DNA of 64,000 nucleotides, from contig NZ_CP088017.1 in NCBI RefSeq assembly GCF_021049285.1, positions 2,181,380 to 2,245,379 on the forward strand, in the 5' to 3' direction. Every line of letters starts with the position of its first letter. Position 1 is the stretch's first letter. The notes under the pieces are model-generated. The model saw only the letters and a program-made list of their open reading frames with translations. It had not been told where the DNA came from and ran no database searches. Of the stretch, positions 45,645 to 51,801 are shown piece after piece. A program made the translations under genes and the position numbers. The DNA is from Ruania halotolerans. GTDB lineage: Bacteria > Actinomycetota > Actinomycetes > Actinomycetales > Beutenbergiaceae.

Positions 45645-48407
<2,763 letters not shown>

Positions 48408-48480
48408 GTGCCACTCCTCGGTGCGGATCTTCGTTGGCGCTCTACGCTCCTGCCGACTTACGGAAGGATCGCGTTTCACA

Positions 48481-48504
48481 ATTTATCTCGATATCGAGAT
48501 AAAT
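48481..48504. promoter_or_regulatory. Perfect 24-bp palindrome upstream of acnA, probable operator
   Basis: Left half ATTTATCTCGAT, right half ATCGAGATAAAT: no spacer, no mismatch, and very A+T-rich for this genome. The centre is 85 bp upstream of the acnA start. On the minus strand TAAATT (48485-48480) and TAGTAT (48508-48503) overlap it and could be -10 elements. The size and symmetry suit a MarR-type dimeric repressor. Streptomyces TamR, a MarR protein that responds to citrate/aconitate, has been reported to control aconitase; that this is its equivalent site is inference. Confidence 0.75.
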
Positions 48505-48519
48505 ACTATCGCAGCGGGA

Positions 48520-48535
48520 CGGCGCCTGCGCGCCG
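48520..48535 (-). terminator. Hairpin after the uracil methyltransferase gene
   Basis: CGGCGC-CTGC-GCGCCG, 9 bases beyond the stop codon of the methyltransferase and before the acnA operator. Stem of 6 bp, all G-C; no T-run. Confidence 0.45.
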
Positions 48536-48544
48536 GACGCGCCA

Positions 48545-49789
48545 TCACGCTGGTGTGAGTACCGCCACCGTCTCCACATGGTGGGTATGCGGGAAGAGAT
48601 CCAGTGCGTCGAGTGCGTCGAGGCGGTACCCGTGCTCGCGTGCGTAGGCCACATCGCGGGCCAACGCGGCCGGGTCACAGGCGACGTACACCACCCGCTG
48701 CGGACGGGCGGCCAGTACCTGTTCAACGACCAGCTCACCCGCTCCTGCGCGCGGGGGATCCAGAACGACGACGTCGGGGCGGACATCCGCCAGGAGGCTG
48801 GGCAGAAGCTGGCCCACCGCCCCCTCGTGCAACTGCACCTGGGGCCGGTCATGCACGTTGCGGCGTGCATCCCGCACTGCACGTGGATCCGACTCGACTG
48901 CATGAACCACACCAGTGCCTGTCACTGCGTCCGCCAACGGAACGGTGAGCAACCCCGCACCGCTGTACAGGTCCAGCATCGTGTCGCCCGGTTCGGCCTT
49001 GGCGGCCTCGAGTACCGCGGAGATGAGTTCACCAGGGGCGCAGTCGTGCACCTGCCAGAACCCGGTCGCCGACACGCGGAACGACCAGGAACGCTCGCCG
49101 ACCCGGACCCGTTCACGCACGGCGCGCCGGGCGCTGCGCATCGGCACACCGTCGACCAACACCATGGGATCGCCCACGCTCGGGGCAATGGCATCGATGC
49201 GCGCGCCCGGTCGCCACTCCCGAGCCAGCAGTTCCGAGACGTCGAGCGCGGGCACCGCCAGCGGCATCGACGCCAACGGCACCACCTCGTGGGTGCGATG
49301 GCGGTACATCCCCGCCCGGCCGAGGCTGTCGGCAACCAGCTCGATCCGGGTGCGGTATCCCAAGCCGTTGCGATCGTGGTCCGGAGCCGCTGATCGCACC
49401 GACACCGTCGCCAGCCGGTCGTCGTCAGGTTCAAGACCGCCGATCCGCGTCAGTGCGTCGCTCAGGACATCTTTCTTCCACCGGCGCTGACCGTCCAGGC
49501 TGACGTGTGCCAGCTCGCCCCCACCCACACCGCCCGGTCCGGCCTCCGGCCACACCGAGGGCACCCGGTCCGCCGAGGCCTCCAGCACGTCGATCGCGTC
49601 GGCACGCCAGTGCCCACGCCTGCTCACGTCGGTCAAGATGGCACGAACACGCTCTCCTGGGAGGGCATGTCGCACGAACACCACACGTCCATCCATCCGG
49701 GCCAGGCAGTGCCCACCATGCACCGGAGCACCCACAGTCAGCTCGACGACGTCCCGCATCCCAGTCTCTTCGATCGCATCCGTGCTCAT
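48545..49789 (-). CDS. TrmA/RumA-family uracil-C5 methyltransferase with TRAM domain
   Basis: A 414-residue SAM-dependent RNA methyltransferase. An N-terminal TRAM domain (VVELTVGAPVHGGHCLARMDGRVVFV) precedes the Rossmann core: DLYSGAGLLTVPLA (SAM), LDPPRAGAG, and catalytic VACDPAALARD with the nucleophilic Cys. The RumA [4Fe-4S] cysteine cluster is absent. Target is U in 23S rRNA or tRNA; which one is not decidable. The ATG at 49789 overlaps the permease stop (ATGA). Upstream in-frame sequence is rejected because it lies in the permease gene. Confidence 0.9.
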   Translation of the reverse strand: MSTDAIEETGMRDVVELTVGAPVHGGHCLARMDGRVVFVRHALPGERVRAILTDVSRRGHWRADAIDVLEASADRVPSVWPEAGPGGVGGGELAHVSLDGQRRWKKDVLSDALTRIGGLEPDDDRLATVSVRSAAPDHDRNGLGYRTRIELVADSLGRAGMYRHRTHEVVPLASMPLAVPALDVSELLAREWRPGARIDAIAPSVGDPMVLVDGVPMRSARRAVRERVRVGERSWSFRVSATGFWQVHDCAPGELISAVLEAAKAEPGDTMLDLYSGAGLLTVPLADAVTGTGVVHAVESDPRAVRDARRNVHDRPQVQLHEGAVGQLLPSLLADVRPDVVVLDPPRAGAGELVVEQVLAARPQRVVYVACDPAALARDVAYAREHGYRLDALDALDLFPHTHHVETVAVLTPA

Positions 49790-51801
49790 TCGGCCTCCGT
49801 ATCGCCATCGGTCCGTACGTCGTGCACTGTCCCGCCCGCTGCCGGACCGACCAACTGCGCCGAGCGCAGTTGCCACGGAACCGAGGCCATGACGACCCCC
49901 GGCATATGCAGGAGTCGCGCCTTGAGTCGCGCCGAGCTGCGGTTGTGTAGCAGTCGTTCCCACCAGGAACCCACCACATACTCAGGGACGTAAACCACCA
50001 CCAGGTCTCGGGGTGACTCCCGGCGAATCGCTTTGACGAATTCCAACACCGGTCGCGTCACTTCACGGTAGGGCGAATCGAGCACTGTCAATGGCAACGG
50101 CAGGCCGAGCCTGTCCCACGACGCGCGCAGTGCGCTCGTCTCCTCTGCATCCACGGCCACCGAGATCGCCTGCAACGTCGACGGGCGCGTCGCACGCGCG
50201 TACGCGAGCGCCCGCATCGTCGGCTTGTGCACCTGCGAGACCAGGACCACCGCGTGCACTCGGGAGGGCAGCGCCTTGGCCTTGCCCTCATCATCGAGTG
50301 CGAGTTCCTCGGCGGCCGCGTCGTAGTGGCGCCGGATCAACCCCATCAGCACGTACAACAGGGCCATCAACCCGACGGCGATCCACGCACCGTGCGTAGC
50401 CTTGGTGACCACCACGACCGCCAGTACCACCGCCGTCAACGCGAAGCCGAAGGCATTCACCGCCCGCGCACGCACCATCTGAGCCCGCTCCTGCGCGGCG
50501 ATCACCGTCCGTAACAGCCGGTTCCAGTGCCGCACCATGCCCAACTGGCTCAGGGTGAACGAGACGAACACTCCCACGATGTAGAGCTGGATGAGCTGGG
50601 TGATCTGCGCCTCGAAGATCCAGATGAGCGCGATCGCCGCGACCGCGAGACTGACGATCCCGTTGGTGAGTGCGAGTCGGTCCCCCCGGGTGTGCAGCTG
50701 ACGCGGGAGGAAGCCGTCCTTACCCAGCACGGAGGCCAATTGCGGGAAGCCGTTGAACGCCGTGTTCGCGGCCAGCACCAAGATCAACGCGGTGGCCCCG
50801 ACCACCACGAAGAACAACCACGGCACCGAAGCGAAGACCACCTCGGCGATCTGGCCGATCACCGGCGTCTGCACGAAGTCGTCCCCCGGTGCGACGCCAT
50901 CGAGGCGCAGGTCCCGGCTCGGGTCCTCCACGAACCGCACCCCAGTGGCCCGGGCCAAACCGAGCACGCTCATCAGCATCGTCGCGCCGATCAGACCGAG
51001 CATCGCCAAGGTGAGCGCCGCATTGCGCGCCTTCGGCCGACGGAACGCCGGGACGCCGGTGCTGATCGCCTCCACGCCGGTCAGTGCCACAGCACCGGAG
51101 GAGAAGGCGCGCAAGACCAGAAACGCCCCTGCGATTCCCATCAGGCCCTGATCCAGCCCGTCGAGGGGAACCACCTCGTAGTCGGCGCTGGTGGCCCGGC
51201 CGATAGACCCGGCAGCCCACTGAATACCGCCCACCACCGCCATCACGCCCATCGCGGCAAGGAACAGGTACACCGGCACGGCGAATCCCAGCCGGGACCG
51301 CAACCGTCCGCGCACGTTGGCAAGGGCAACGAGGGCGACCATGCCCGTGGCCACCCACTCCTCGTTGCCGCGCAAGGCGGGCCACAGAGTTGCCAGGTAC
51401 TGAGCACTCGAGGACAGCGAGACCGCCACAGTGAGGACGTAGTCGACGAGCACCGCGCTGCCGACCGCAAGGCCAGCCCTCTTCCCGAGGTTCACCGTGG
51501 TGACGTGATAGTCGCCACGACCATCGGGATAGGCGCGAACCAGATGCCGGTAGGAGGCCACCACGGTGAGCATCACACCGACGACCGCCAGGCCCACCCA
51601 CGGAGAGATCGTGGCCGCGGCGAGGCCGGCGAGAGAGAGCGTAAGCAGAATCTCGTCCGGAGCGTAGGCCACCGAGGACAGCGCGTCCGAGGCGAAGATC
51701 GGCATCGCCTCTCGCTTGCGGAGCAATGCGTGCCCGAGACGGTCACTGCGGACCGGTCGCCCGACCAGCAGCCGTTTCGCGGCGTCGACGATGTCTGGCA
51801 C
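49786..51801 (-). CDS. KimA-like APC/KUP-type potassium importer with C-terminal cytosolic domain
   Basis: A 671-residue membrane protein with about 12 TMs (37-470) and a soluble Usp-like domain (about 505-640). The N-terminal text FASDALSSVAYAPDEILL (36-53), SYRHLVRAYPDGRGDYHVTTVNLG and LVDYVLTVAVSLSSS closely parallels B. subtilis KimA (SSDALSSVAY..., SYRQ..YAYPQGGGAY.., LVDYILTVAVS), a high-affinity K+/H+ symporter inhibited by c-di-AMP. Older annotation would call it an amino-acid permease. It is divergent from two TrkA genes, which supports potassium. GTG start; no Shine-Dalgarno, TAGCAT six bases upstream. Confidence 0.85.
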   Translation of the reverse strand: MPDIVDAAKRLLVGRPVRSDRLGHALLRKREAMPIFASDALSSVAYAPDEILLTLSLAGLAAATISPWVGLAVVGVMLTVVASYRHLVRAYPDGRGDYHVTTVNLGKRAGLAVGSAVLVDYVLTVAVSLSSSAQYLATLWPALRGNEEWVATGMVALVALANVRGRLRSRLGFAVPVYLFLAAMGVMAVVGGIQWAAGSIGRATSADYEVVPLDGLDQGLMGIAGAFLVLRAFSSGAVALTGVEAISTGVPAFRRPKARNAALTLAMLGLIGATMLMSVLGLARATGVRFVEDPSRDLRLDGVAPGDDFVQTPVIGQIAEVVFASVPWLFFVVVGATALILVLAANTAFNGFPQLASVLGKDGFLPRQLHTRGDRLALTNGIVSLAVAAIALIWIFEAQITQLIQLYIVGVFVSFTLSQLGMVRHWNRLLRTVIAAQERAQMVRARAVNAFGFALTAVVLAVVVVTKATHGAWIAVGLMALLYVLMGLIRRHYDAAAEELALDDEGKAKALPSRVHAVVLVSQVHKPTMRALAYARATRPSTLQAISVAVDAEETSALRASWDRLGLPLPLTVLDSPYREVTRPVLEFVKAIRRESPRDLVVVYVPEYVVGSWWERLLHNRSSARLKARLLHMPGVVMASVPWQLRSAQLVGPAAGGTVHDVRTDGDTEAE

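Follow-up and report, generated by a model that had tools for sequence, protein, structure and literature searches.

Introduction

In Corynebacterium glutamicum, an actinobacterium, aconitase is repressed by the TetR-type regulator AcnR, and mycobacteria as well as corynebacteria use TetR-type AcnR instead of the MarR-type regulator TamR. In Streptomyces coelicolor, TamR is reported to repress aconitase and to be released by citrate and trans-aconitate (PMC5487221). We analysed a stretch of 64,000 nucleotides from the genome of Ruania halotolerans (the window, to whose positions plain coordinates refer). An earlier note on this DNA had proposed that a palindrome in front of the aconitase gene acnA is the operator of a TamR-type switch.

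Results

A perfect palindrome at the putative acnA promoter

The palindrome, ATTTATCTCGATATCGAGATAAAT (48481..48504, assigned to neither strand), was confirmed letter for letter as perfect over 24 bp, with 0 mismatches and 0 spacer, and as A+T-rich, with 75% A+T compared with 67.6% G+C in the window. No other perfect palindrome longer than 16 bp occurs in the 64-kb window, and the 18-bp core TATCTCGATATCGAGATA (48484-48501, inside the palindrome) is found there once at ≤ 3 mismatches (mean of 0.01 in shuffled sequences). Base composition predicts ∼0.015 perfect 24-bp palindromes per 64 kb and about one per 4.27-Mb genome, so the weight of this element comes mainly from its conservation and position, not from its perfection alone.

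The acnA gene (45645..48407, minus strand) encodes an aconitate hydratase A of 920 aa (NF006757, 1448 bits; TIGR01341, 1328 bits). Homologue alignments and the Shine-Dalgarno sequence GAGGAG (48414..48419, minus strand, read directly from the sequence) place its start at the GTG at 48407, and the palindrome lies 73 bp upstream of this codon; the GTG at 48479, which opens the longest ORF, was rejected because homologues align from 48407. In the direction of acnA, TGCGATAGTATT is followed by the core, AATTGTGAAACG, the remaining leader, GAGGAG and the GTG. The palindrome had been placed between a terminator-like hairpin and acnA. The downstream boundary stood, the terminator did not: the GC-rich hairpin at ∼48505-48550 was rejected as an intrinsic terminator, as it lacks a T-tract and folds no better than shuffled sequences (z −0.13). 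The upstream neighbour of acnA is an RNA (uracil-5) methyltransferase-like gene (TrmA/RlmCD type, named by inspection; 48545..49963, minus strand, start approximate), which is on the same strand, adjoins acnA in many relatives also, and is outside the proposed acnA switch.

A scan for consensus sigma-70 promoters found nothing at acnA, and hence we infer the promoter from a recurring TAnnnT hexamer. Among 54 distinct acnA promoters, such a hexamer often borders the operator on its upstream side. It is TAGAGT in Streptomyces, TAGATT or TAAGAT in other bacteria, and TAGTAT in R. halotolerans (48503..48508, minus strand), where it overlaps the operator at the promoter-proximal end. As these 54 loci were chosen by presence of the motif, the core carries no evidence there, while the flank still counts. 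In Streptomyces, ATGACC precedes TAGAGT by 17 bp, and among the matches listed the arrangement TAGAGT-TATCTCGACATCGAGATA lies mostly 125-150 bp before acnA. Thus, TAGTAT is likely to be the −10 element of acnA, abutted by the operator.

Further predicted operator sites include one at a tamR-like gene

The earlier note had suggested looking for further copies near central-carbon or marR genes. At ≤ 3 mismatches, the exact 18-mer occurs at three places in the whole genome (acnA, a marR gene and sucC), all with palindromic cores, and its reversed control at none. A degenerate 18-mer consensus at the same threshold matched 11 places, eight of them beyond the exact-18-mer set (reversed control, three places). 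Four of the 11 are intergenic, namely acnA (0 mismatches), icd (2), the marR gene, below called tamR (3), and sucC (3); the other seven fall within ORFs, one of which (L158) is short and doubtful. The tamR site is 10 bp upstream of its gene, the sucC site 39 bp (sucC: NF001913, 532 bits) and the icd site 38 bp upstream of an ORF that opens like a monomeric isocitrate dehydrogenase and was named by likeness to L059 (859 bits against TIGR00178). The sucC site is present in five of the eight genomes of the genus (R. halotolerans and four others), missing in three, and also found elsewhere in the family, in several genera. A relaxed 14-mer scan with 2 mismatches gave 25 places, many within ORFs, and was left out of the target calls.

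The tamR-like gene (G000:C1:1066608-1067099, or L002:996-1490; minus strand) encodes a MarR protein of 164 aa. It gave no specific family above cut-off when compared with curated families, but shares 59-66% identity with homologues encoded next to tam and clusters with these, apart from the MarR paralogues L004 and L009 of its own genome (the grouping does not cover L023); the homologue tree is poorly resolved at its base and supports orthology within the family. Judged by its sequence, this protein is the TamR orthologue. The segment S85-G86-T87-M88-T89-x-R91, part of what is likely the DNA-recognition helix, is nearly invariant in 60 TamR homologues. The closest solved structures are 8ylh (E 4e-31) and 8ylf (4e-29), followed by 5dd8 and 2fbk; 8ylh, 8ylf and 2fbk we take to be PecS/HucR-type, urate-responsive MarR proteins.

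In the family of Ruania, the region upstream of tamR reads TCTCTCGATRTCGAGTAATCTC, with the ATG a few bases on, 6-8 nt past TAATCT, and the sequence further upstream is not conserved. The family tamR promoter is therefore likely to be leaderless and overlapped by its operator, which would account for the odd right half GAGTAA. Directly before tamR lies a FasR-like TetR gene (L002:1535-2194, minus strand; NF053731, 102 bits, below the cut-off of 330), which keeps this place in many relatives. A tam gene was not found in the R. halotolerans genome (best match 35 bits, cut-off 320). It had been noted that no regulator gene adjoins acnA and that control would act in trans, and this view holds: the neighbours of acnA are peptidase-like and RNA methyltransferase-like, no AcnR-type tetR was found among the adjoining ORFs in the window, and the TamR-like MarR protein is encoded elsewhere.

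Conservation of the proposed operator in relatives

To gauge conservation, 30 acnA homologues from 29 relatives, not selected for the motif, were searched within 250 bp upstream. The motif TATCTYGAYRTCRAGATA was present at ≤ 1 mismatch in 24 of the 30, and one more carried it at 3 mismatches; none of 6,000 shuffled upstream regions reached ≤ 1 mismatch. The expected conservation of the palindrome in front of acnA was thus found. The exceptions include G026 and G028, both of which lack TamR as well as the site, and two homologues from G008 with 63-65% identity. The regulator gene gave a similar picture: among 53 tamR genes collected by likeness of their proteins, and likewise without regard to the motif, 46 had a site at ≤ 3 mismatches within 250 bp upstream (0.0001 in shuffled sequences). 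Divergent pairs of tam and tamR (L092/L115, L106, L116, L152 and L156), the arrangement from which TamR has its name, also have the motif between them; elsewhere it precedes tam (L075 and L110; the L075 gene reaches 266 bits with NF010703, whose cut-off is 320) or icd/mdh (L059, L126, L131 and L142).

Across the class, the exact motif, with no mismatch allowed, was compared with the presence of a TamR homologue at E ≤ 1e-30 in 394 genomes. Both were present in 167, the motif only in five, TamR only in 92 and neither in 130 (Fisher p 7e-36, a value that overstates significance because the genomes are related and not independent; we rely on the pattern rather than on this figure). Motif carriers thus encode TamR in 167 of 172 cases, and four of the five motif-only genomes are incomplete (77-84% complete). 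The reversed pattern did not occur in any of the 394 genomes. That 92 of the 259 genomes with a TamR homologue lack the exact motif is due at least partly to the ban on mismatches and to paralogues that may be included among homologues at E 1e-30. The exact motif is missing from one large family, f22, of the sample.

Several lineages showed patterns of their own. In the genus g16 (L069, L070, L071, L072 and L073, at about position 1501), a PrpD-type 2-methylcitrate dehydratase gene is preceded by the same palindrome (the L070 gene matches NF042438 with 854 bits), so that propionate/2-methylcitrate metabolism may be under TamR control there as well. In the family f44 (L139 and L140), tamR persists in very small genomes of 1.2-2.2 Mb, as does an exact operator placed 20-29 bp ahead of acnA. 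The tamR genes of L094, L096 and L105 (genus g8) and of L097 have no recognisable upstream operator, and acnA in G014 and G018 has one; autoregulation of tamR seems to have been lost in this branch. In G032 (L076 and L354), TamR has diverged (48% identity); its gene carries an exact operator but acnA has none upstream, a possible change of regulon. Finally, L051:1501-1518 holds an exact motif between nucleoside hydrolase and transporter genes, without a link to the citric acid cycle, and may reflect chance or an unexplained target.

Other readings of the palindrome

Could a regulator other than TamR bind the palindrome? The genome encodes many MarR-domain proteins, one of which (G000:C1:471423-471902) is 38% identical to TamR, and the FasR-like TetR gene stays next to tamR in many relatives. 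However, the motif precedes tamR itself, tracks TamR over the 394 genomes and is carried by divergent tam-tamR pairs, whereas the paralogue has no upstream site (best match with 6 mismatches) and, in the locus examined, no copy of the motif stands at the promoter of the TetR gene. We regard either protein as an improbable occupant of this site.

The element could also act in the acnA leader as an RNA hairpin, be it riboswitch-like or for mRNA stability. The 24-mer folds into a 10-bp stem with a 4-nt loop (−10.5 kcal/mol, z −4.1), as any perfect palindrome would. Yet it is the letters that are conserved, not pairing alone, and the motif is found between divergent genes as well as before icd, tam, tamR and sucC. 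As it abuts a −10-like element, the transcript probably holds only part of it, and at tamR the operator lies upstream of the likely leaderless start. A role as RNA is thus more doubtful still than binding by another regulator. Least credible of all is a chance palindrome without function: one such element is expected per genome, but chance hardly explains conservation in front of 24 of 30 acnA homologues when none of 6,000 shuffled sequences matched.

Discussion

Collectively, the data support the TamR-type (MarR) operator proposed in the earlier note, by virtue of the sites at icd, sucC and tamR, the conservation at acnA and the motif between tam and tamR. We estimate a probability of about 0.9 that a TamR-type MarR repressor, whose gene lies in another part of the genome, uses the palindrome as its operator; this protein would repress acnA and be released by citrate or aconitate. 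The site is almost certainly bound by the organism's own TamR-like protein, as far as sequence comparison can tell; binding, repression and ligand response are transferred here from S. coelicolor TamR. A search of the open literature for the letters of the operator found no match.

In the mechanism we propose, a TamR dimer would occupy TATCTYGAY/RTCRAGATA, a pair of half-sites of 9 bp each. The operator would start at the downstream edge of the −10 hexamer of acnA and span the likely transcription start, and TamR binding should therefore block RNA polymerase. Together with the operator that overlaps the predicted tamR promoter, this points to repression by occlusion. When the iron-sulfur cluster of aconitase is damaged, citrate, cis- or trans-aconitate or isocitrate would build up; these ligands would loosen TamR, and acnA expression would rise. 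The same TamR may also control icd, sucC and tamR itself via weaker sites.

What we describe is an extension of a known regulon and not a new kind of system, the new details being the absence of tam and the addition of sucC. A broader interpretation, to which we give even odds, is that TamR is a class-wide repressor of the citric acid cycle whose ancestral role was the control of aconitase and its neighbours rather than of trans-aconitate methylation; TamR and its acnA operator would then have outlasted tam, and the regulon would have grown to take in sucC in the family of Ruania and, it seems, prpD in the genus g16. With a defined consensus and a list of targets, what was a finding in a single organism, S. 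coelicolor TamR, becomes a regulon that can be tested throughout the Actinomycetes. Adjusting the TCA cycle under oxidative stress by detecting a failing aconitase via citrate and aconitate may well be widespread, also among genomes as small as 1.3-1.5 Mb, and the acnA operator could be used for a citrate/aconitate biosensor.

Of the systems to which this locus may be compared, AcnR belongs to the TetR family and is unrelated to TamR in both protein and operator; FasR (below cut-off), not AcnR, is the best match of the TetR gene close to tamR. The PecS/HucR-type proteins share a fold family with TamR, and the N-terminal motif W..ERPDLD and the helix WEFD(V/M)L of the R. halotolerans protein recur in 8ylh and partly in 8ylf, but their targets differ from those of TamR and, according to the Streptomyces work, so do their ligands. 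The counterpart is S. coelicolor TamR, with some differences: tam is missing from the R. halotolerans genome, the tam-tamR motif being found in other genera; tamR is preceded by a FasR-like TetR gene rather than diverging from tam; and sucC is a predicted target in the family of Ruania. As in S. coelicolor, an orthologous MarR protein is encoded, a predicted operator stands before both acnA and tamR, and the predicted targets belong to the TCA cycle (PMC5487221).
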